Under the pieces are notes generated by a model that did no database searches, was not told where the DNA came from, and saw nothing but the letters and a program-made list of their open reading frames with translations. The position numbers and the translations under genes are program-made. Shown here piece after piece: positions 47,779 to 58,398 of a stretch of DNA of 64,000 nt (the stretch's first letter is position 1; each line of letters begins with the position of its first letter). The stretch comes from Gammaproteobacteria bacterium (GTDB lineage: Bacteria; Pseudomonadota; Gammaproteobacteria; SZUA-229). The stretch spans positions 1 through 64,000 of the forward strand of contig JAOUKV010000020.1 in the NCBI GenBank assembly GCA_029882355.1, given 5' to 3'.

Positions 47779-48252
47779 TTAGAAAAAGTAATTTACGCCT
47801 AAGCTAATAAAGTTAAGGCCATCATCAATCTCAGTATATTCAACCTCCATTAGTCCTCCTGCGGCCCAGAAACCTATGCCGATACCAAAAGAAAGTTCCA
47901 GATTGTCATTATTGCCATAATCAACATCGGTTATACCAATTTTAGCTTTGAACTTAACTTTAGTATTTGAACGAAATGCGGCAAATACAGACAGTGTATC
48001 AACTTCCCAGTTATTGCCTGAGGGTGTATCGCCGTCGATAAGTGTTCGGGTTAATTCTACTTCGGTCGATAGGTATTTGTTCTGGCGATAGCCTATATCT
48101 AATCCCATGTTTACCGCGCTATCGTTAAATCCCTGTGGATCCATGAATCCGCCCTTGATGCCAAAATACCAGGGTGTGTCTTTATTAGCTGCTTCTGCAT
48201 AAGTGCTTATTAGTAACAGTGTGCATAATATACTTAGGATGATTTTTTTCAT
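47779..48252 (-). CDS. small outer-membrane beta-barrel-like protein
   Basis: A 157-residue exported protein. The signal peptide MKKIILSILCTLLLISTYAEA is followed by alternating amphipathic strands (WYFGIKGGFMDP, VNMGLDIGYRQNKYLSTEVELTRTL, LELSFGIGIGFWAAGGLMEVEY) and ends in NYFF, the C-terminal Phe expected for BAM-assembled barrels. ATG 48252 is preferred; 48282 would add 10 polar residues. No specific family assigned. Confidence 0.75.
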   Translation of the reverse strand: MKKIILSILCTLLLISTYAEAANKDTPWYFGIKGGFMDPQGFNDSAVNMGLDIGYRQNKYLSTEVELTRTLIDGDTPSGNNWEVDTLSVFAAFRSNTKVKFKAKIGITDVDYGNNDNLELSFGIGIGFWAAGGLMEVEYTEIDDGLNFISLGVNYFF

Positions 48253-48400
48253 GGGTGCTCCGCTAAATGCTGAAAACAGCAAAAATATTAGGTGTTGTGT
48301 GATTACAAAGGAGGAGTTTGACTGTTTTTTACATTTAAACGATATTTTATCTAGCTATCAAAATGATAGCAACGGGAGGTGTTGTTAATGTCTGTGATAA

Positions 48401-48436
48401 AAAATAAAGCAGCTTAAAAGCTGCTTTATTTTTTAT
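48401..48436 (-). terminator. intrinsic terminator (bidirectional)
   Basis: AAATAAAGCAGCT (48402-48414) and AGCTGCTTTATTT (48419-48431) form a 13-pair stem with a TAAA loop, A-tract on one side and T-tract on the other. It serves the minus-strand TIGR02647 gene ending at 48453. Confidence 0.88.
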
Positions 48437-48452
48437 TTGATTATGTCTTTAT

Positions 48453-48701
48453 TCAACTTGCTTCGGTAACGGGTGCCAACATCAATACCAGAGTTTGAGC
48501 GTGTTCCGCTGCGGTTCGTCCCAAATCGGTTAAATAGCCGCCATCGACCTGTGTGATCATGCCTTTTTCATGCAGACGTTTGACCGCTTCAATGGTTTCG
48601 GGATTGGCGCTTCCGTGTACTTTGATTCCTTGTTGCGTGCTTTCCAGGTTATAACGAATGAGTACATCCATTTCCTGGATTTGTTCGGGGGAATAGGGCA
48701 T
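48453..48701 (-). CDS. TIGR02647 family protein
   Basis: An 82-residue protein matching the TIGR02647 pattern MPYSPEQIQEMDVLIRYNL, STQQGIKVHGSANPET and GMITQVDGGYLTDLGRTAAEHAQ. It has a winged-helix-like look, but its function is unknown. ATG 48701 is preceded by AGAGG. A perfect FNR-type site lies 160 bases upstream, so it is probably induced at low oxygen. Confidence 0.85.
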   Translation of the reverse strand: MPYSPEQIQEMDVLIRYNLESTQQGIKVHGSANPETIEAVKRLHEKGMITQVDGGYLTDLGRTAAEHAQTLVLMLAPVTEAS

Positions 48702-48834
48702 AACACAACCTCTTTGGGATGAAATAGTCATTGTGACTGGACTGGTTAATCTTGACGGATTCTCATATTTAAATCAATTGCTTAGTTAATGAGTCAAGCG
48801 CACACATTATTTGTGGTAACTGATTTAAGTCATG

Positions 48835-48875
48835 ATCATAAAGCTATGCAGAAGCGGCATATTGATTTTGATCAA
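48835..48875 (-). promoter_or_regulatory. FNR/Anr-type promoter of the TIGR02647 gene
   Basis: TTGATTTTGATCAA (48862-48875) is a perfect match to TTGAT-N4-ATCAA. On the minus strand, TATGAT (read 48840 to 48835) fits a -10 element and puts the start near 48828, with the FNR site centred near -40.5. This is class II activator geometry. The resulting leader is about 127 bases. The site lies just after the end of the TlpA-like gene. Confidence 0.65.
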
Positions 48876-48887
48876 TCAGGCGCATAT

Positions 48888-49409
48888 CTAATCAAGTTTG
48901 AAATGTTGACGAATTTTTTTGCCGAACTCTTCATTCCCCCAGGGAGCAATACCGTAAAAGTTGCCGCTATAGGTTCCATCGGCTGAGACGAAGATGGTAA
49001 AGGGCAGTGCCGGAATGTCCAGACTATCGCTGTCATTTTTATCAACTAACAGTGCAGACATAGAAAGCTGATATTTTTTTATGAAGTATTTGGACTGTGC
49101 CATACGCTCATCCAGCGATAGCGGAATAATCAGAATGTCAGGATTATTTTTCTTCCACTCCAGCATATCGGGTAATTCTTTGCGGCAGGGGAAACACCAC
49201 GCTGCCCAGAAGTGTAATAAACGTGGTTTGCCCTGAGTGTCTTTTAGGTGATGAGTCTGTTCTTCCGTATCCAGCCAGCGAATGTTGGGCATCGGTTGCT
49301 TATCGCCAGGTTTTATTTCACTGGCATAACTGAACTGCGACAGTGAAAGCGTAACCAGCGCCACTGCAATAATACTTATAGGAAGATTTGTAGGGTTGCG
49401 AAATTTCAT
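48888..49409 (-). CDS. TlpA-like exported thioredoxin-fold protein
   Basis: A 173-residue protein with a signal peptide ending in FSYASE and a TlpA/ResA-type thioredoxin fold. The active site is FWAAWCFPCRKE (C72, C75), with a cis-Pro loop DIPALPFTIF later. It should act as a periplasmic thiol reductant or oxidant, for instance on apocytochrome or a copper chaperone. ATG 49409 overlaps the CX3CH cytochrome stop (ATGA); GTG 49412 is possible. Last gene of the five-gene redox operon. Confidence 0.9.
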   Translation of the reverse strand: MKFRNPTNLPISIIAVALVTLSLSQFSYASEIKPGDKQPMPNIRWLDTEEQTHHLKDTQGKPRLLHFWAAWCFPCRKELPDMLEWKKNNPDILIIPLSLDERMAQSKYFIKKYQLSMSALLVDKNDSDSLDIPALPFTIFVSADGTYSGNFYGIAPWGNEEFGKKIRQHFKLD

Positions 49410-49699
49410 CACTGGTCTTGTTGTGACAAATAATCAAGCAGCAGTTTAGTTTGATCTTCGGTTAATGGTGATCGACCCGAGCTTTGCATGCGAGTTTGCA
49501 TGGTGTTCAAAACTACGCGCCATTGTTTGGGTCTCAAGCGGCTGCGGTCGGGCGCCTGGTGGCAGGCATCGGCACAAAAAGTGGTGAATATTTCCTCGCC
49601 GCTGAGTGTTTCACTATTGCTATCAACTTCGGTAGTTTCATTGGCATGAAGCATACTGCTTATTAAAAGTAAAAAGAGCATTAGGCTGCATTTTATCAT
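49409..49699 (-). CDS. small c-type cytochrome-like protein with a CX3CH motif
   Basis: A 96-residue exported protein. Signal peptide ends near HANET. The heme-site region reads FTTFCADACHQAPDRSRLRPKQWRVVLNTM, that is C42-A-D-A-C46-H47: three residues, not two, between the cysteines. The context (CHQAPD.S.L.PxQWRxV) is clearly that of a c-type cytochrome of the CxxCH class. CX3CH is a rare natural variant that some systems can still load with heme. Possible axial Met68 or later. Start overlaps the preceding gene by four bases. Confidence 0.8.
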   Translation of the reverse strand: MIKCSLMLFLLLISSMLHANETTEVDSNSETLSGEEIFTTFCADACHQAPDRSRLRPKQWRVVLNTMQTRMQSSGRSPLTEDQTKLLLDYLSQQDQ

Positions 49700-50280
49700 G
49701 GTAATTGTTGATCCAGAATTTGAACGAGTGTATCACCGGTTCGGTAATCTTCATTCATCAGAATAGTGCCATCGCTGTCGATGACGATGGTGATGCCCAT
49801 GGCACCATTAAACTGATTTAGTACAGCCTGATCTACATCCGCCAAAATGCTGTAGCTAGAGCCTACATAACCATTGGCTTGAGCGGCGGCATAGGTAGCA
49901 GAGACGCTACCGGAAACATAATCAACCAGACCATAAACAACGGTTCCACGGCCAAGAAATTGTGGCATAACGTTGGTATAAATATGATCAGAATGCGAAA
50001 GGCAGATTGGGCACCACATGGTGAAGTAGAGCACAACTACATCCGCAGGATTCGAGCCGCCAGTTAAATGATCGGATAATATAAAATCATTACCATTCAG
50101 GTCTTTAATGGTGAAGTCTGCTGCGATTTGACCTGGCATATTACCGGTTGACCCGGTTGTTACTGCGCCACGTTGATCGCTACTGGAGGGCAGAAGATCG
50201 TCTTTTAAATCACAGGCACCTAGGCCAAACACTAGCAAGCTCAGAGCCAGAAGTTGTTGTAAAGTTTTAGCGTAAGACAT
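49696..50280 (-). CDS. thioredoxin-fold lipoprotein (AhpC/TlpA-type)
   Basis: A 194-residue lipoprotein with lipobox GLGAC (C23). After a Ser/Thr linker follows a redoxin fold with ADFTIKDLNGNDFILSDHL and LYFTMWCPICLSHSDHI, the C90-x-x-C93 site. The MWCPIC form of the active site and its spacing resemble TlpA/SCO-like thiol oxidoreductases used in copper or heme delivery. It begins 13 bases inside the preceding gene, so translation is coupled. Confidence 0.85.
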   Translation of the reverse strand: MSYAKTLQQLLALSLLVFGLGACDLKDDLLPSSSDQRGAVTTGSTGNMPGQIAADFTIKDLNGNDFILSDHLTGGSNPADVVVLYFTMWCPICLSHSDHIYTNVMPQFLGRGTVVYGLVDYVSGSVSATYAAAQANGYVGSSYSILADVDQAVLNQFNGAMGITIVIDSDGTILMNEDYRTGDTLVQILDQQLP

Positions 50281-51271
50281 GGCTAACTCCTACGGTAAGA
50301 ACGTCAGTGGTGGGGAAGTTTTCACCCCAGCCATCACGTGATGGAGCATGGCTATAAGTGAGCTTATAGACCCAGTCACGATTTTCAGTGGCCCAGGCCA
50401 TTGTCATGGAAACCGATTCTTTGCTGATGCCGGAAGTGGTATCGATAACACCATCAATCCTGGCTTCATCTTCTTTTAAAATAGCGTAGGCCAGTGTGGT
50501 CGTGATCGACTCCATTTCATCGGTGAAGTAGGTGTAACCAAAGCTGAGGTTGGTATTTAAGCGGTCACCGTATTGTTTGTGATAAGGCGCGACGTAAGTG
50601 CCATATTCACGATTGACAGGGCGCTCCAGATATTTGCCATAGCTGGCACCGAAACTCATGTTCCAGGGATAGATGGTTTTATCAATTAAAACGGAAGCAT
50701 CAAGGCGGTATGCGCCACGACCTGTGATATCGAAATTATCCACTACATCGTCATAGGGTGAAGTGCCGGTGGGAATAGTCAGTGTGCCACCCATATAAAT
50801 GGCAGGCATCAGGTCTTCCCAGTTCTTTACATCCCATACGCAGGTGATTTTTTCAAAGGCTTCATACCAGACAGATACCGTGCCATCACCAATGCCATTG
50901 GTGTTTCGTTCCAGACTGGCATATTTGTTTTGGTTAAAGACATAAGGCAGCGTGACAGAACCTTGCCAGTTGGGCGCTAAACGATGGGCGTAACCCATGT
51001 TTATTCGATACTGATTCAGGCTGGAGCCTTCCGGGTCTTCTACCCAGTCGCCGTTGTTATCCCAGAAACCATCGTAATGCTCATAATCCATACTGACATC
51101 GAGCATGGCTTTGGAGAATTTAGGTAATACCAGAGAAGAGGCCGAGCCGCCACCGCAGCAGGAAGCGGCATGGGCAGTTGGAATCCATTCTACTGGACTG
51201 AAAACAAGAGCGGTGCTTGTAATAAGCACCGCTCCTATGTAGCTATTAATCGGTTTTTTATAGTGCTTCAA
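50267..51271 (-). CDS. outer-membrane-like protein with an N-terminal CCGGG motif
   Basis: A 334-residue exported protein. The signal peptide (about 35 residues, ending AHA) would expose ASCCGGGSASSLVLPKF at the mature N-terminus, a probable metal-binding or thiol site. The remainder is made of amphipathic beta-strands (YRINMGYAHRLAPNWQGSVTLPYVF, GGTLTIPTGTSP, LNTNLSFGYTYF, VLTVGVSHVLR), so it is likely an outer-membrane barrel. No family named with certainty; transporter-like 'CCGGG' barrels occur beside redoxin genes in other gammaproteobacteria as far as I recall. Confidence 0.7.
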   Translation of the reverse strand: MKHYKKPINSYIGAVLITSTALVFSPVEWIPTAHAASCCGGGSASSLVLPKFSKAMLDVSMDYEHYDGFWDNNGDWVEDPEGSSLNQYRINMGYAHRLAPNWQGSVTLPYVFNQNKYASLERNTNGIGDGTVSVWYEAFEKITCVWDVKNWEDLMPAIYMGGTLTIPTGTSPYDDVVDNFDITGRGAYRLDASVLIDKTIYPWNMSFGASYGKYLERPVNREYGTYVAPYHKQYGDRLNTNLSFGYTYFTDEMESITTTLAYAILKEDEARIDGVIDTTSGISKESVSMTMAWATENRDWVYKLTYSHAPSRDGWGENFPTTDVLTVGVSHVLR

Positions 51272-51279
51272 AATACTTC

Positions 51280-52905
51280 CTACATAGCGCCAGGTGTTAC
51301 GGTGAAGGTTGCATAATCATTAATACCTGCACCAGCTACACCGTCGATGCTGCTGTTGAGTGTATAGGTATTGGTGGCTATACGTACATAGAGTGTTCCT
51401 TCAACACCGTTAGTCAGGCCAGTTATACCCTCGGCTGTCCAGTAACCGCTACCATCTTGATTGGCTAGAATTGGACTAGTGAAAGCAGCGTCAGTTGACA
51501 CTTCTACAGCCATATTAGCGATGATTAGAGCAGCTTCGTTCAAAGAAACACCATCAAAAACAGCCGGAAAGCTCATCATTGTTTCCATGGTAGAAGTGAA
51601 TAATTCGAATGTATGGCTACCAGGTACACTAATCAGGCTGGATTTGAACACCTGAAAAGTACGTGCAACTGGGCCATCCATACTCATCATTGTAAGGTTG
51701 CTATTTTTCAGTTTGACCATAGCAGTGCCATTCATCGCCATCATTACGGGTGGGAAGAAATGAGCAGTATCCGCCATTCCACCAACCATCACGGCTAAAT
51801 CCCAGTAACCCATAGATGTGCCGTCCATCATGACAGAAGCCATTACATAATAAACGGTGCAGTCATAAGTGCCGGGTGTAGCACTTGGAATACAAGCACC
51901 TGCATTATCAACGGGTGTTGAATGTGTTTTGTCAGCCATATGCATCATAGGCATTATTGATACCGTATCGCTTACGGGTGCACCAACACTATCAGTAACA
52001 CGAATCTGGAATTGACTCTTACCTTCCATCGCGTCCATCTCCATCATGCCCATTGTATCTTTGAGATATTCAACGGTGTAGTTGGCTGTAAGGGCAGTTT
52101 GGGCGAAAGGTAGAACACCAATCATGTCAGCAGCAAGACCAGATGCGTCATTACCACCATCACGGAAGTTCATCATGGCAAGAGTGAACTGGTTCTGGAT
52201 GTTGGCAGATAATGCTATACCAGTCGTATTTGATCCATCCAATGTGCCATCGGACAGGTCTTCTGCCAGAGCTAGCATGAGGTCAAACTGTTCAGCTGCT
52301 GTTAGCCCCAAGTCTAATGCTAACTGACTAAAAGTAGCAGCATGTAAACCTGCCAATAATTCATCGTTGCTGGCGCCAGTTGCAGGAGCAGTTGCATCAG
52401 TGGGTGCAATAGTAGTGTCAGGTGTATATCCAAAAGCGCTACTAAATGCAGCTTCAGCATCAGCATGGGTCATTTGATGCTGCATTCTTAGTTGGTACAT
52501 AATGGTGCTATCAGGTGTCGCGTGTAGAGCTACACCTGCGGCGAGTGTGCCGCCATTGGCATACGCAGCCAACATGCCAGCTGTTTGACTCGTACCATCA
52601 GCTTCATTGGTGTAAGTACCACCATCACAAACTAGGACCAGGTCGTCAGCAAGGTTAGCGGTCGGAATATTGGCACTGTAGGTACCAGTGGCAGATGTAC
52701 CGATGTTATCTACGATGATGTTGCCATTGATATCCTGAACACTACAAGCTGCACCATCGACTGCAGATGCAAAAACAGAACCGTCGATAGTCGTTGAAGC
52801 AACGCCAGCGTCATTACTACATCCAACCGTACCGGCAGATAGGATGGCTGCCAGCAATGTGGCAATGGCGGTACGCGAAAATGATAAATGATGTTCTATC
52901 GACAT
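51280..52905 (-). CDS. Met-rich lipoprotein, first gene of the exported redox operon
   Basis: A 541-residue lipoprotein with lipobox SAGTVGC. Residues 30-300 are Ala/Thr/Asp-rich with a small beta-domain. From about 295 there are dense methionine clusters: DTMGMMEMDAMEGK, IMPMMHMADKTHSTP, MMDGTSMGYWDL, PPVMMAMNGTAM, LTMMSMDG and STMETMMSF. The segment SQFQIRVTDSVGAPVSDTVS...YWDLAVMVGG resembles the FixH/YtkA-like beta-fold. Met clusters with His in an exported protein often bind Cu(I), so a copper-binding role is the best guess. No exact family known to me. Confidence 0.75.
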   Translation of the reverse strand: MSIEHHLSFSRTAIATLLAAILSAGTVGCSNDAGVASTTIDGSVFASAVDGAACSVQDINGNIIVDNIGTSATGTYSANIPTANLADDLVLVCDGGTYTNEADGTSQTAGMLAAYANGGTLAAGVALHATPDSTIMYQLRMQHQMTHADAEAAFSSAFGYTPDTTIAPTDATAPATGASNDELLAGLHAATFSQLALDLGLTAAEQFDLMLALAEDLSDGTLDGSNTTGIALSANIQNQFTLAMMNFRDGGNDASGLAADMIGVLPFAQTALTANYTVEYLKDTMGMMEMDAMEGKSQFQIRVTDSVGAPVSDTVSIMPMMHMADKTHSTPVDNAGACIPSATPGTYDCTVYYVMASVMMDGTSMGYWDLAVMVGGMADTAHFFPPVMMAMNGTAMVKLKNSNLTMMSMDGPVARTFQVFKSSLISVPGSHTFELFTSTMETMMSFPAVFDGVSLNEAALIIANMAVEVSTDAAFTSPILANQDGSGYWTAEGITGLTNGVEGTLYVRIATNTYTLNSSIDGVAGAGINDYATFTVTPGAM

Positions 52906-53154
52906 AGGTGCTTCTCCATAAAATATAAAATAATTTGAACATATTGTAATTAGTGAATGTGTGTCTGGGAATGCGACATAGTGACGCAGCTGGTCATGAA
53001 AACTGATGGATTAGTTTCTATGTCTATGAAATTCTGAGAATTTATTGACTGAGGAATATAAGTGAAGGCTTATTTCCATTAAAGTAAACTTGATCTAGCT
53101 CCTGTTATAGTTGACGATGTTTTGCATAATACTGACTTTTTACCGAGTTGCCTC
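52906..53154. promoter_or_regulatory. divergent regulatory region between the redox operon and nnrS
   Basis: About 250 AT-rich bases separate the Met-rich lipoprotein start from the nnrS start and must hold both promoters. I found no perfect FNR, NsrR or CueR-type site. Sigma-70-like hexamers occur, but their spacing is poor. Confidence 0.4.
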
Positions 53155-54360
53155 ATGCCATTGAATATTGATAACAGAAGTATCGCCTTAGCTATTCCAC
53201 CTTTATTGCGTCTGGCATTCAGGCCACTATTTTTAGGTGGTACTGTATTTTCTATTATTGCGATTATCTGGTGGCTTTATTTCTGGATGAATCCTTTTAA
53301 CTGGCAGCCTTATGGTGGGCCGGTCTGGTGGCATGGTCATGAAATGTTATTTGGTTTTGGTGCGGCCATTGTTGTTGGTTTTTTACTGACAGCGGTGCAA
53401 TCCTGGACCGGGGTGATCGGCATCAGAGGTAAACCTCTAGCGGTACTGGTATTAATGTGGTTGTCCGGAAGATTGTTGTTAGCTTTTGGTTCAGCTTTGC
53501 CCGACTGGTTGATTGCGGCAGGTGATGTCAGTTATCTATTGTTTGCCGCCATTGCCATGGCCTATCCGGTGATTAAAGTAAAACAGTGGCGTAATTTAAT
53601 GTTTGTGCCGATATTGTTTGTTTTTGCTTTATTGAATGCGGCCAGTCACTGGGGGGTGATTACCGAACAACCGCAGCTCGCCATTCAGTCACTGCACGGC
53701 ACGATTATGCTATTTGCTTTAATTATTTCCATAGTAGGTGGACGTGTTATCGCGGCATTTACCGCTAATACTATGGGTAATCAAAGAGCGCAGCCTATGC
53801 AGTGGTTAGAAACAGTGAGCATTGCCAGTATTATTTTTATGCTGGTAATAGCATTTTACGGTTTTGCCAGCGTGCCATCGGCTTTGTTGTTTATTGTTTC
53901 CAGTATTGCCGCCATCGCCAATGGCTGGCGTTTTTTACGTTGGGGTTTCCAGCATAGCTGGACTGATCCCATGTTGTGGTCGTTGCATCTGGCCTATGCC
54001 TTTATCCCCCTGGGTTTTGTTGGTCTGGCTTTGCATAGTGTGGGTTTGATGGACAATACCAGTGCAGCTTTGCACAGTTTTACTGTTGGCTCTATTGGCG
54101 GAATGATTCTTGCGATGATTTCGCGTGTCACCTTAGGTCATACGGGTAGACCGCTTAATCCACATAAATTAGTACCACTGGCATTCGGTTTTATTTTACT
54201 GGCCGCAGTATTACGTGTTGTATTGCCTGCCTGGCTGCCAGAAACATCACAATGGGGTATTGGCCTTGCAGGCGTTCTTTGGGTGGCTGCTTATGGTATT
54301 TATGTTTTTGTATACGCACCAATGTTGCTAACAACCCGGGCAGATGGGAACCCGGGATAA
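53155..54360 (+). CDS. nnrS: NnrS family heme-copper membrane protein
   Basis: A 401-residue protein with about 12 membrane helices matching NnrS, a heme- and copper-containing protein of nitric oxide stress and denitrification. Typical stretches are LLRLAFRPLFLGG at the N-terminus, GGPVWWHGHEMLFGFGAAIVVGFLLTAVQSWTG, the GGRVIAAFTANTMG loop, LHSFTVGSIGGMILAMISRVTLGHTGRPL and several conserved His. ATG 53155 gives the normal N-terminus; TTG 53122 would add 11 residues. It lies divergent to the exported redox operon. Confidence 0.95.
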   Translation: MPLNIDNRSIALAIPPLLRLAFRPLFLGGTVFSIIAIIWWLYFWMNPFNWQPYGGPVWWHGHEMLFGFGAAIVVGFLLTAVQSWTGVIGIRGKPLAVLVLMWLSGRLLLAFGSALPDWLIAAGDVSYLLFAAIAMAYPVIKVKQWRNLMFVPILFVFALLNAASHWGVITEQPQLAIQSLHGTIMLFALIISIVGGRVIAAFTANTMGNQRAQPMQWLETVSIASIIFMLVIAFYGFASVPSALLFIVSSIAAIANGWRFLRWGFQHSWTDPMLWSLHLAYAFIPLGFVGLALHSVGLMDNTSAALHSFTVGSIGGMILAMISRVTLGHTGRPLNPHKLVPLAFGFILLAAVLRVVLPAWLPETSQWGIGLAGVLWVAAYGIYVFVYAPMLLTTRADGNPG

Positions 54361-54370
54361 TTAGTCAGAG

Positions 54371-54412
54371 TTGCCCTGGATCAAGAGTCTATGTATAGAG
54401 TAACATTACAAT
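54371..54412 (+). promoter_or_regulatory. FNR/Dnr class-II-type promoter of the Cys-rich peptide
   Basis: TTGCCCTGGATCAA (54371-54384) matches TTGAT-N4-ATCAA in eight of ten bases. TACAAT (54407-54412) is a five-of-six -10 element; a start about 7 bases later (near 54419) puts the site centre at -41.5, exactly the class II position. The 39-residue gene begins 29 bases further on. Confidence 0.6.
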
Positions 54413-54447
54413 TCTCCTTCGATTAAACAGGTAATGAGGATAATAAT

Positions 54448-54567
54448 ATGGGTTGTTGCGGAAGCTGTGGCGGTCAAGACGCTGATAAAGAAAAAGATCA
54501 GGAAAAGGATAAAGAAAACGAGCAGGAGCGAAATCAGGAATCAAATAAAGAACAGGAAGAGAAATAA
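54448..54567 (+). CDS. 39-residue Cys-rich peptide with a CCGSCGG motif
   Basis: A short gene with GAGG ten bases before its ATG. The product begins MGCCGSCGGQDADK and continues as a run of Glu, Lys, Asp, Gln and Asn with no hydrophobic residue, ending EQEEK. Three cysteines in CCGSC at the N-terminus could bind a metal or an iron-sulfur precursor; the tail is a highly charged, disordered or helical chain. The terminator downstream and the FNR-type promoter upstream support a real independent gene. Its first residues recall the CCGGG start of the outer-membrane-like protein across the divergent region. No family known to me. Confidence 0.7.
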   Translation: MGCCGSCGGQDADKEKDQEKDKENEQERNQESNKEQEEK

Positions 54568-54905
54568 CGATCTTGCTGGCTGTTAGCCCGATGGTCATTG
54601 ATTTGACTATCGGGTTTGATTTACCCGTTCACAATATAAATCTTCTTCTAGATGATACTAGCGGCCTCGGTTAGCAAGTATTGGCTAGATTCTATAACCT
54701 ACCTTCTTCGATGGTAATTTTCACCATCAGCTGCTTTGGCCGCTCCATCACACCAAATACCATGATCAATAGCTCTGACCAGCTATTTAAGAATACAATT
54801 GATAATTAATTTCATTGATTGGACGAGAAAGTATAAAGAATATGTTATATATATCCTGCTACATATTAAATCACTTAAATGCTAAAAAATCATCAAAGGT
54901 ACGTC
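54568..54905 (+). other. intergenic region after the Cys-rich peptide gene
   Basis: After the terminator this region holds no complete gene. On the minus strand a short frame near 54695-54785 reads ELLIMVFGVMERPKQLMVKI and then IEEGRL before a stop; it may be a small relic. An AT-rich stretch near 54790-54870 probably carries the promoter of the binding-protein gene. Confidence 0.4.
54587..54621 (+). terminator. intrinsic terminator after the Cys-rich peptide
   Basis: CCCGATGGTCA (54587-54597) pairs over 11 bases, with one G-U pair, with TGACTATCGGG (54604-54614) around a 6-base loop, followed by TTTGATTT. Confidence 0.8.
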
Positions 54906-55820
54906 ATGTTTAGATATTTCTGTCTTTTTTTCGTCATGATTGCAACCCCTCTTGCAACGGCATCGGATGGTAACCGTCGGGTAATTGCATTTGCGCAGGA
55001 CACGATGGCCAATGACTTCCGTAAAGCACAGGTATTTGAAGTGCGTGATGAAGCCTCAAAATATCCAGGTCTCTCATTTGTCTATTCAGACGGCCAGGGG
55101 CAGACATCATTAATGATTCGACAGATTGAGCAGTTTATAGCGCAGAAAGTTGATTTGCTTGTTATTGGCACAAATGACGAAAATGCAGTTGTTCCTGTTG
55201 TTTCTAAGGCTTACAAATCAGGTATTCCAGTTATTGTTCTCGATAGAGGTATTAAAGGTAACGGTTATACCACTTTTATTAAATCAGACAATGTGAAGAT
55301 TGGCAGACTTGGTGCTGAGTACATTGCAAAAGCATTAAATGGTAAAGGGGTGGTTTTGTTATTTGAAGGTATTCAGGAGGCGGATGTTACCAAGCTGAGA
55401 AGTAAGGGTTTTACTGATGAGATGAGTAAACATAAAGGTATTCAAACCATCAAACGTACCGGTAATTTTTTACGCAAGGACGCTGTTATCGAAATGGAAA
55501 AATTGCTGAAGCAGGGTGTTCATATTGATGCCATTTTCTCAGAAAGTGACAGTATGCTGAGCGGCGTAAGAATGGTATTGAGGCGTTACAATATTGATCC
55601 GGCATCAATGGTGATGGTGGGTGTTGATTATATCAGTGAGGCGCAGCAGGCTATTCGTAATGGTAGTCAGGCAGCTTCTATACTGTTTCCGCTAGGCGGT
55701 ACGGCTACAATTAAGAATGCATTGAAAATTTTTAACGGCGAAACGGTTCCAAAACATATATATAACCCGGTAAAACTGGTGACCAAAAAAAATGTGGAAG
55801 AAGTAGCTCCTATTTTTTAA
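54906..55820 (+). CDS. periplasmic sugar-binding-type (RbsB-like) protein
   Basis: A 304-residue exported protein. Signal peptide ends near PLATASDG. The mature part is a type I periplasmic binding fold of the peripl_BP_4 group: VIAFAQDTMANDFRKAQVFEV, QIEQFIAQKVDLLVIGTND, YKSGIPVIVLDRGI and KRTGNFLRKDAVIEMEKLL. There is no ABC transporter next to it; the following gene encodes a GGDEF-EAL protein. It is therefore probably a ligand sensor for that protein rather than an importer component. ATG 54906 has AGG nearby and gives a cleaner signal than ATG 54879. Confidence 0.88.
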   Translation: MFRYFCLFFVMIATPLATASDGNRRVIAFAQDTMANDFRKAQVFEVRDEASKYPGLSFVYSDGQGQTSLMIRQIEQFIAQKVDLLVIGTNDENAVVPVVSKAYKSGIPVIVLDRGIKGNGYTTFIKSDNVKIGRLGAEYIAKALNGKGVVLLFEGIQEADVTKLRSKGFTDEMSKHKGIQTIKRTGNFLRKDAVIEMEKLLKQGVHIDAIFSESDSMLSGVRMVLRRYNIDPASMVMVGVDYISEAQQAIRNGSQAASILFPLGGTATIKNALKIFNGETVPKHIYNPVKLVTKKNVEEVAPIF

Positions 55821-55851
55821 TAGGCGTGCTTGAAATCTAATCATCAGGACG

Positions 55852-58398
55852 ATGTCAAATGCTCAAATATTGATAAAAAACGTGCAAAGAAAAAGTAGTC
55901 TTAAAACTAAACTTTCTATATTAGTGACTGCTGCAGTCATGCTGGTCGTGACTGTACTGGGTTTCTATTTCGATGAGTTTTTAAAAAACAGTTCTCTTGA
56001 AAATACCCGTATCCGTATGCATCATGGTTTCGAGCGCCTGTCATACAATCTTGAAAATATAGAGCATGAGCTAAATGAAGGAATAGCTTTTGCCCGGTCA
56101 GATGAGAAGTTGATAGCATCAGTCGAGCTGATCAACAATTATCAGGATAAGGAAAATTATAATACCTACCTCATTGATGAGGAGAAAAAGTCAATTGCCA
56201 GCCAGTTATTGAGTCGTGTCAAACTTTCGTTTAATGAAGATATTTCGATCTATGATTTGAATAATGAGCTGGTTGCTTTTGTGACCAAGGCGAAGGGTAC
56301 ATATCGACTTAGTTATGTCTCTTATCAAAATGGCCAGGGACAATTGTATAGCCGGGACGAATATCAGCGTGAATATGTGGTTGCTGATGTTTCGCTACCG
56401 CTGAGCATGTCGCACCAGCATCAGTATTTTCATGAATTAGAAAAATTGGATGAAGCAAGTCTGGTGACGTATCAGTATCTGGCTGATCAAATTATTATTA
56501 AGTCACATCAGAGTGTTTTTGATAGAGATTCAAAACATACAGTCGGACATATCGAGATGTCTCGAAATCTGGATCGAACATATTTCGAACTGTTTTCTGA
56601 AGAGCTGGATCTTGATATGCAGTATTCCTTTGATCCCGTTCTAGAAGAACAGGCTGGAATTTTGAAAAATAGTATCGATGCCCAGCAGCTTAATATTCTT
56701 CAGACCGATCTTAATTACACTTCAGTTTTAAAACAGAGTAGTCAGAATGGTTCTATCTACTACCGAGTTAATCTTGATAAGGTGGTGCTGAATACGCTGC
56801 TGAATGAAAGCCGTGAGCAGTTTTTCATATTTTTGATTCTTGTTCTAATCTCAATTGTTTTTCTGATGCACTATGTTATTAATCGTTGGCTGGACCGACC
56901 ATTGAAACAATTGATGCAACAGATCCATAAAATCGAGTGTCAAAACTATTCTTCATCTAAACCTGTTGATACTGGCGATGAACTTGAAGTTATTTCTGTC
57001 AATATTAATCAACTGGCACTGACTGTACAGGAACGTGAAACCTTACTGGGGATCTCCAGGGATGAGCTGGAATATCTTTCTAATCATGATGTGCTGACAG
57101 ATTTGCCGAACCGCAGAATTTTTTCACAATGTTTACAACATGCACTGGATTTGGCTTCTCGTAATGATGGACGATTAGCTATCTTCTTCCTCGACCTGGA
57201 TCAGTTTAAACTGGTCAATGATACTCTGGGGCATGATATTGGTGATGAATTGCTGATTCAGGTCTCAAAGCGCTTGCTCAAGCATGTACGTGCCGCTGAT
57301 ACGCTGGCTCGAATCGGTGGTGATGAGTTTAATATTCTGATTGAAGATGCACCTGATAAGCATGAGCTGAAAAAACTCGTAGAAAAATATATGTCATTAT
57401 TTAACCAGCCATTTAAATGTTGTGGGCATGATATTAATGTGACTGTGAGTATTGGGATTGCACTATATCCTGGGGACGGTGTAGACAGTGTTAGCCTGGT
57501 AAAACATGCTGATTTAGCCATGTATAACTCAAAGGATCATGGTCGTAACGAATATACGTTTTTCTCAAATGATCTTTCACTGCATGCTCAGAGTCGCGCA
57601 AATCTGATTCATGCCATGGAAAGTGCTATTGAGTCAGGCAATCAATTTGAGTTGTATTACCAGCCTAAAGTTTTAGCTGGCTCTCATAAAATTATTTCTA
57701 TTGAAGCCCTGTTACGTTGGCATAGTCCTGATCTTGGTGAGGTGCTGCCGGATGAATTTATTACTCTTGCGGAAGAAACCGGGCTGATTATTCCTATTGG
57801 TGAATGGGTTTTACAACAGGCCTGTCAGGATTTTGTTCAATTGCAGGAAGAGGGCGTTCAGTTAGAGCATGTCAGTATTAATGTATCAAATGTGCAGATG
57901 AATAAAAGCGATATGCTGACAACAGTTACTGAGACAATTAGCAACTCCGGAATAAATTGCCAACAAATTGAATTAGAGATTACTGAAAGTTATATCGCGA
58001 CCGATGTTGATCAGGCTGTCGAAACGCTGCAAATATTTCATGATATGGGTATAGGTGTCGCGATTGATGACTTTGGTACAGGTTATTCATCGATGCATTA
58101 TTTGCAGAAATTACCGATCTCACGTTTAAAAATTGATAAAAGCTTTGTTGATGATCTACCTGTATCAAAAGATAGTGCAACCATTGTTAGGGCTATTATT
58201 GGTCTGGCAAAAAGTTTTAATCTCGCGATAACTGCTGAAGGAGTTGAAAATAAAGATCAGCTTCTCTTTCTTGAGGATGCTAAGTGTGATGAAATTCAGG
58301 GTTACTACATCTCAAAGCCTCTTTGTCTGAATGATTTCATGGCTTTTTATAACTCAAGTCTGAAAGAAGTTAAATATTCAGGGCTTGATTGTGATTGA
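55852..58398 (+). CDS. GGDEF-EAL membrane signalling protein
   Basis: An 848-residue c-di-GMP enzyme. Membrane helices lie near residues 22-40 and 324-343 and enclose a ~280-residue periplasmic sensor. After a HAMP-like linker comes a GGDEF domain (NHDVLTDLPNRRIFSQCL, then RIGGDEFNILIED, intact) and an EAL domain (SIEALLRWHSPDLGEVLPDEF, DDFGTGYSSMHYL, LKIDKSFV, intact). Both activities are possible, so it may be a synthase, phosphodiesterase or switch. It is co-directional with the binding protein gene after 31 bases and likely senses that protein's ligand. It converges with the NYN gene. Confidence 0.95.
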   Translation: MSNAQILIKNVQRKSSLKTKLSILVTAAVMLVVTVLGFYFDEFLKNSSLENTRIRMHHGFERLSYNLENIEHELNEGIAFARSDEKLIASVELINNYQDKENYNTYLIDEEKKSIASQLLSRVKLSFNEDISIYDLNNELVAFVTKAKGTYRLSYVSYQNGQGQLYSRDEYQREYVVADVSLPLSMSHQHQYFHELEKLDEASLVTYQYLADQIIIKSHQSVFDRDSKHTVGHIEMSRNLDRTYFELFSEELDLDMQYSFDPVLEEQAGILKNSIDAQQLNILQTDLNYTSVLKQSSQNGSIYYRVNLDKVVLNTLLNESREQFFIFLILVLISIVFLMHYVINRWLDRPLKQLMQQIHKIECQNYSSSKPVDTGDELEVISVNINQLALTVQERETLLGISRDELEYLSNHDVLTDLPNRRIFSQCLQHALDLASRNDGRLAIFFLDLDQFKLVNDTLGHDIGDELLIQVSKRLLKHVRAADTLARIGGDEFNILIEDAPDKHELKKLVEKYMSLFNQPFKCCGHDINVTVSIGIALYPGDGVDSVSLVKHADLAMYNSKDHGRNEYTFFSNDLSLHAQSRANLIHAMESAIESGNQFELYYQPKVLAGSHKIISIEALLRWHSPDLGEVLPDEFITLAEETGLIIPIGEWVLQQACQDFVQLQEEGVQLEHVSINVSNVQMNKSDMLTTVTETISNSGINCQQIELEITESYIATDVDQAVETLQIFHDMGIGVAIDDFGTGYSSMHYLQKLPISRLKIDKSFVDDLPVSKDSATIVRAIIGLAKSFNLAITAEGVENKDQLLFLEDAKCDEIQGYYISKPLCLNDFMAFYNSSLKEVKYSGLDCD

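Follow-up and report, generated by a model that had tools for sequence, protein, structure and literature searches.

A Met-rich lipoprotein, barrel, and redoxin cassette that probably handles copper at the outer envelope in several bacterial lineages

What might a row of five genes that encode only exported proteins do at the envelope of a bacterium? The question is raised by a stretch of 64,000 nucleotides (nt), here called the window, from a gammaproteobacterium of the SZUA-229 lineage (assembly GCA_029882355.1, contig JAOUKV010000020.1, positions 1 to 64,000), in which five minus-strand open reading frames (ORFs) lie at 48888-52905. An earlier interpretation made from the letters alone (the sequence-only reading) had proposed either a copper relay or a heme/nitric oxide (NO) protection pathway. 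By comparing this cassette with its relatives, we found that it probably handles copper at the outer envelope under a respiratory master regulator, in several lineages. It is not a nitric oxide system. That the cassette handles copper is well supported because of a YtkA/CtaK-like Met domain in its lipoprotein, a Csp1 neighbor in some relatives, and a RegA/RegR-type palindrome in its promoter. The best reading of its role is a RegBA-controlled relay for copper supply at the envelope, to which we assign a probability of about 0.5.

A constant three-gene unit and an accessory pair

The five ORFs that the sequence-only reading had described are all present, and each product has an N-terminal export signal as judged by eye. 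From the promoter end, they encode a Met-rich lipoprotein (METR; 51280-52905), an SCCGGG outer-membrane beta-barrel (BARR; 50267-51271, listed with a TTG start), a CPxCxxH redoxin lipoprotein (LTRX; 49696-50280), a small exported monoheme cytochrome c with a CX3CH site (49409-49699, with a weak match to Cytochrome_CBB3), and an exported TlpA/ResA-type thioredoxin with a WCxPC site (TLPA; 48888-49412). The genes had been said to overlap. Four of them do so, by 4-14 nt, but METR and BARR are 8 nt apart.

We scored 43 distinct loci with profile hidden Markov models, 42 of which carry the barrel; one Mariprofundaceae locus, L031, was taken as the same locus as L090 of family f202. Among the barrel-bearing loci, 16 of 42 have all five genes in order and 17 of 42 have only the first three, while four genes are present in three loci without TLPA and in two without the cytochrome. 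The three-gene core METR-BARR-LTRX is intact in 38 of 42, and each of the remaining four loci (L039, L049, L097, and L099) has two genes and is truncated by the end of its contig. L037, the 43rd locus, contains only the Met protein and a barrel fragment and appears to be broken. Based on these counts, the constant unit is the Met-rich lipoprotein, the barrel, and the CPxCxxH redoxin, and the cytochrome and TLPA form an accessory pair. Because the gene order is kept in relatives, the five-gene order is not due to chance. Moreover, intact homologs without a redoxin neighbor were found only where a contig ends.

The redox proteins of the cassette could be classified further. LTRX, previously described as a CxxC lipoprotein, is a redoxin lipoprotein (AhpC-TSA match, 1.6e-8; ResA-like in the PDB) with an active site, C90-P91-x-C93-x-x-H96, that is kept in 40 of 40 redoxins. 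We considered and rejected its assignment to SCO1/SenC (PF02630), as it has CPxC and a nearby His instead of CxxxC and a distal His and matched AhpC-TSA and Redoxin but no SCO model. The last gene was rightly called TlpA-like: TLPA has WCxPC in the alignment and matched AhpC-TSA (2.5e-11) and the ResA subfamily (3.2e-18). The CX3CH spacing of the cytochrome is unusual for c-type heme attachment. This atypical heme site does exist in the window; of the 19 cytochromes, however, just six have it (the window, L027, L028, L070, L088, and L089), with CXXCH in the other 13. In the barrel tree, the loci with the CX3CH form are grouped or close to one another. The cytochrome gene itself, present in 19 loci, is missing from about half of all the loci.

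Conserved residues and copper-linked neighbors

METR consists of a lipobox Cys (Cys29), an N-terminal carboxypeptidase-regulatory-like immunoglobulin (Ig) domain, a central helical part, a YtkA-like Met/His domain at about residues 270-430, and a C-terminal Ig-like domain. Across 41 aligned Met proteins, Met321, Met323, His328, Met355, Gly366, and Trp368 are invariant (41 of 41) and Met359, Met365, Met389, and Met391 nearly so, which shows that the Met clusters pointed out by the sequence-only reading are conserved among homologs. Neither of the two outcomes that this reading had named as refuting it, homologs alone without redoxin neighbors and non-conserved Met clusters, was therefore obtained. 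The YtkA model PF13115 matched 7 of 23 METR members (best, 8.8e-6 in L047, above the curated cut-off), and for members with positions listed, the match is located in the Met domain. Searches of Pfam and NCBIfam with the METR and BARR of the window gave no usable family, a PDB sequence search with the METR profile returned chance matches only, and a METR structure model (predicted local distance difference test [pLDDT], 61) had generic Ig-type matches only. The N-terminal 230 residues of METR recur in other large predicted proteins (L020-L026 and L050), most of which match that part alone.

The pairing of a lipoprotein that has a YtkA-like domain with a thioredoxin-fold protein resembles that of CtaK, a YtkA protein, and the copper protein Sco, which are thought to act together in CuA assembly for cytochrome oxidase in Bacillus subtilis (PMC13344008). 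In contrast to that pair, the cassette is found in Gram-negative bacteria, includes a predicted outer-membrane channel, and has a CPxCxxH redoxin rather than Sco, and some of its carriers show only one oxidase gene.

The barrel protein had been described as starting with SCCGGG. The motif is real, but it begins the mature protein and not the ORF. Both SCCGGG and Cys144 are kept in 41 of 42 barrels, and the remaining row is gapped there. A BARR structure model (pLDDT, 62), built from a six-row alignment, has 12 main strands, and strand counting suggests that Cys144, in the turn at 138-156, is periplasmic and on the same side as the N-terminal CC. PF13557 matched 7 of 20 members (best, 1.9e-7), with the window member not among them, and none of the 20 matched the PcoB/CopB family. 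The best structural matches of the model were to FapF (5o65; template modeling [TM] scores near 0.6-0.7), and it also matched the COG4313 channel 4rl8 (TM-score, 0.59-0.73).

FapF exports amyloid subunits, and its place at the top of the structural matches would be expected if BARR, like FapF, exported polypeptides and put the Met-rich protein on the surface of the cell. However, FapF and the COG4313 channel have one common fold, and therefore the match is not specific for export. A lipobox-like motif is present in 34 of 41 Met proteins, and we noted no gene for a Fap partner near the cassette, although no specific search for one was made. We consider such an exporter highly unlikely. BARR is like the COG4313/Phenol_MetA_deg channels and FapF in its fold and in weak sequence similarity, but it differs from them in its invariant SCCGGG and Cys144 and in its fixed operon partners. 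The COG4313 channels have been linked to hydrophobic compounds (PMC4493636).

Several kinds of gene were found beside the cassette. In four Mariprofundaceae loci (L088, L091, L092, and L093), the gene directly downstream encodes an exported four-helix copper storage protein of the Csp1 type, with a TAT-type signal and many Cys residues; the one homolog searched had an E value of 5e-14 to 5fjd. Csp1 is outside the cassette of the window, and no Csp1 search of the window's genome was made. A small exported Met/His/Cys-rich protein is encoded upstream of the cassette in L030, L031, L088, and L093, also Mariprofundaceae. Genes for a RegB-like sensor, a RegA-like regulator, or both are next to the cassette in L038, L048, L089, L091, L093, and L096, and the RegB sensors of L093 and L096 have Met/His-rich loops. 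A His-rich PF13557 barrel adjoins or is near the cassette in L043 and L038, and a TonB gene and the end of a receptor adjoin it in L095. Finally, a multiheme cytochrome block with an NHL/multiheme fusion and a NapH-like ferredoxin membrane protein is directly or closely upstream in L028 (3-6022), L033 (9457-16684), and L041.

The multiheme blocks beside these three loci bear on a different explanation, in which the cassette is assembly or thiol-quality machinery for a redox protein of the cell surface. The redoxins and the cytochrome would then mature a heme or disulfide protein, the Met residues would scavenge oxidants, and copper would be incidental. TlpA/ResA-type redoxins commonly serve cytochrome maturation, which also speaks for this explanation. 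Yet multiheme neighbors occur at only 3 of 43 loci, the Met positions are not scattered but invariant together with His and Trp, and the Csp1, YtkA, and Met/His sensor links indicate copper. We regard assembly machinery as unlikely.

The promoter palindrome and a proposed copper relay

The cassette promoter contains a RegA/RegR-type palindrome, TGCGACATAGTGACGCA, at 52972-52988, and this site could act on the divergent NnrS gene as well. Seven consensus boxes were tried, and the RegA-type core GCGNC-N5-GNCGC alone was strongly enriched in cassette promoters; FNR, CueR, CusR/CopR, NorR, and NsrR boxes showed no clear enrichment there. The exact core was found in 12 of 37 promoters, against 0.39 expected from 3285 control windows of the same loci, and a core with one mismatch was found in 11 further promoters of the 37 (5.3 expected). 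The binomial chance of at least 12 exact matches is ∼4e-15, with the loci being related and not independent. The majority of the sites have the form TGCGACA-N3-TGTCGCA, and the RegR consensus quoted in PMC5506826 is GNGRCRTTNNGNCGC.

Just two exact TGCGNCA-N3-TGNCGCA sites are present in the window's genome, one in the cassette promoter and the other immediately upstream of nosR-nosZ. A one-mismatch site lies between regB-regA and the genes exbB-exbD-tonB with a TonB receptor; this regB-regA pair matched NF033792 (7e-68) and NF033791 (7e-64), both under the curated cut-offs. On contig C23 of this genome (L115, 3701-10835), the genes divergent from regB-regA are exbB-exbD-tonB and those for a TonB-dependent receptor and for an exported BNR-repeat protein whose start is His-rich. 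In 30 carrier genomes, we counted 12 copies of the strict palindrome and none of a reversed control. Five of the 12 are at the cassette and four at regB, with one common to both, and one precedes a TonB-dependent receptor 60% identical to the above receptor of the window's genome. The rest adjoin either lpxC and the gene of a CxxCH heme-site protein or another barrel gene. The position between lpxC and a small exported CxxCH heme-site protein is found for the strict palindrome in two genomes that belong to one genus (L122 and L131).

Loci of the regB-senC-regA type likewise combine a redox two-component system with a neighboring copper-type protein of the thioredoxin fold, SenC being a Sco. 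The cassette differs from them in its redoxin and in having the Met lipoprotein and the barrel. In Rhodobacter capsulatus, RegA binds copper, and the copper-induced dimer binds the ccoN promoter (PMC9147068).

We propose the following relay. RegBA would switch the cassette on. The barrel would be an outer-membrane channel, with a periplasmic mouth in which three invariant Cys residues (CC and Cys144) bind or gate Cu(I), and the Met-rich YtkA-like lipoprotein would hold Cu(I) in its Met/His site beside the barrel. The CPxCxxH lipoprotein redoxin would take the copper or keep the Cys residues reduced, and TLPA and the small cytochrome c, where present, may supply or drain electrons. The copper would then be passed on to respiratory cuproenzymes or stored (in Csp1, where present). 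Gene order, invariant residues, family resemblances, the promoter box, and the Csp1 and RegBA neighbors are what we observed, whereas copper as the ligand, its inward flow, gating by Cys, and the sequence of hand-overs are steps that we infer. The copper relay idea of the sequence-only reading has gained independent support from the YtkA-like Met domain, the Csp1 neighbor, the Met/His-rich RegB sensors, and the RegA-type box common to nosR. We suggest, tentatively, that this may be a copper supply route not previously described in Gram-negative bacteria. Its outer-membrane channel would have a copper gate of the sequence Cys-Cys-Gly-Gly-Gly, with dedicated redoxins to reset the gate and a Met-rich lipoprotein to feed it, and RegBA would switch the route along with a TonB uptake system and the genes for nitrous oxide reductase. 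The libraries and papers searched, a coverage that mostly excludes subscription journals, contained no description of the cassette.

The same proteins could instead serve copper defense. The cassette would then buffer excess Cu(I) of the periplasm or expel it, with the barrel as a PcoB-like exit channel, and thiols would be protected by the Met lipoprotein and the redoxins. PcoB, an outer-membrane barrel that has a Met/His-rich tail, functions in efflux (PMC12509749), the nearby Csp1 and small Met/His/Cys-rich proteins could be sinks, and a patchy, apparently horizontally moved cassette resembles resistance genes. However, the promoter box is common to nosR, regBA, and the TonB system, not to known efflux genes, and a non-exhaustive look at the recurring neighbors revealed no copper ATPase, multicopper oxidase, or HME-RND pump. 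PcoB/CopB and BARR are alike as outer-membrane barrels with conserved N-terminal soft-metal ligands in a copper-type operon. Unlike PcoB/CopB, BARR is PF13557/COG4313-like and has a very short CCGGG motif rather than a long Met/His-rich disordered tail, and no PcoA was noticed with the cassette. Overall, we find copper defense doubtful.

It is important to note that several observations weigh against the copper supply relay. The window's own METR does not match the YtkA model PF13115, which matched only relatives, and the METR and BARR structure models are both of modest confidence. Across Mariprofundaceae genomes, Csp1 occurs in 5 of 12 with the cassette and in 11 of 62 without it, a weak association at the level of genomes even though the adjacency within loci is clear. 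In the window's family, carriers and noncarriers of the cassette have nosZ and heme-copper oxidases equally often, and thus the cassette is needed for neither. The cuproenzyme co-occurrence test had no power in this family because nosZ and the oxidases are nearly universal there. Of 23 carriers outside the family, nosZ is present in two and a match to a heme-copper oxidase in 22. NosZ as the sole client was dropped, since 21 of these 23 carriers lack nosZ; NosZ is one client at most.

Distribution and other genes of the window

When 145 related genomes were searched, full-length relatives of METR, 39 to 68% identical, were found both in several genomes from the window's family and in a second family. 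The barrel was found in assemblies named as Gammaproteobacteria, Zetaproteobacteria, and Mariprofundaceae. It was also present in 13 of 321 genomes sampled across the class, in 14 of 398 sampled across the phylum, and in 12 of 74 of family f202, taken as Mariprofundaceae. None of the plasmids in PLSDB carries it. The core is spread over many gammaproteobacterial families and the Mariprofundaceae. In the barrel and redoxin trees, the window's genus groups with L028, L070, and Mariprofundaceae, apart from its own family (split support, 99/99 and 100/99), and the other five genomes of the genus (G002-G006, several of them incomplete) gave no match. This placement and the lack of matches within the genus suggest that the cassette has probably moved horizontally.

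Carriers of the cassette include nitrous-oxide-reducing bacteria, in which copper supply limits N2O removal, and Mariprofundaceae, described members of which oxidize iron. The passage of ionic copper across the outer membrane is a poorly known process, with OprC as a recent example (PMC8610252), and the cassette is a compact, conserved candidate for it with named residues to mutate. Further, the cassette links a copper-type operon to a redox regulator for which copper binding is known in another species, and whether RegBA controls copper supply thereby becomes directly testable.

Divergent from the cassette on the plus strand is a gene for NnrS (53122-54360), followed by one for a 39-residue CCGSCGG peptide with a charged tail (54449-54568), which had no family match in Pfam or NCBIfam and is not shown to be a cassette member. 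The NnrS identification was confirmed (PF05940, 5.5e-110), but NnrS is not a conserved part of the cassette, being absent from its vicinity in the relatives compared. A heme/NO protection pathway that joins the cassette to NnrS and the Cys-rich peptide could draw on the intergenic region common to NnrS and the cassette, with its RegA-type box. Against this pathway, no NnrS or CCGSCGG match was found near the cassette in the related loci compared, no NO-regulator consensus was enriched in promoters, nosZ is rare in carriers outside the window's family, and the cytochrome is missing from about half of the loci. The pathway is largely refuted by this non-conservation and is very improbable.

The Cys-rich peptide is present, as the sequence-only reading had stated, but no FNR box with at most one mismatch is near it, contrary to the FNR-type regulation proposed. 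The single such box within 48000-55000 is a perfect one, TTGATTTTGATCAA, at 48862-48875, between the end of the cassette and a minus-strand DUF5669/TIGR02647 gene (48453-48731), which it might control. The FNR-like sequence nearest to the peptide is TTGCCCTGGATCAA, with two mismatches by eye. Farther along the window, 54879-58398 contains a sugar-binding-protein-like periplasmic gene and then a large GGDEF/EAL-type gene. On another contig (L118, 210-4673), a similar periplasmic-protein gene is beside a gene of 1161 residues.

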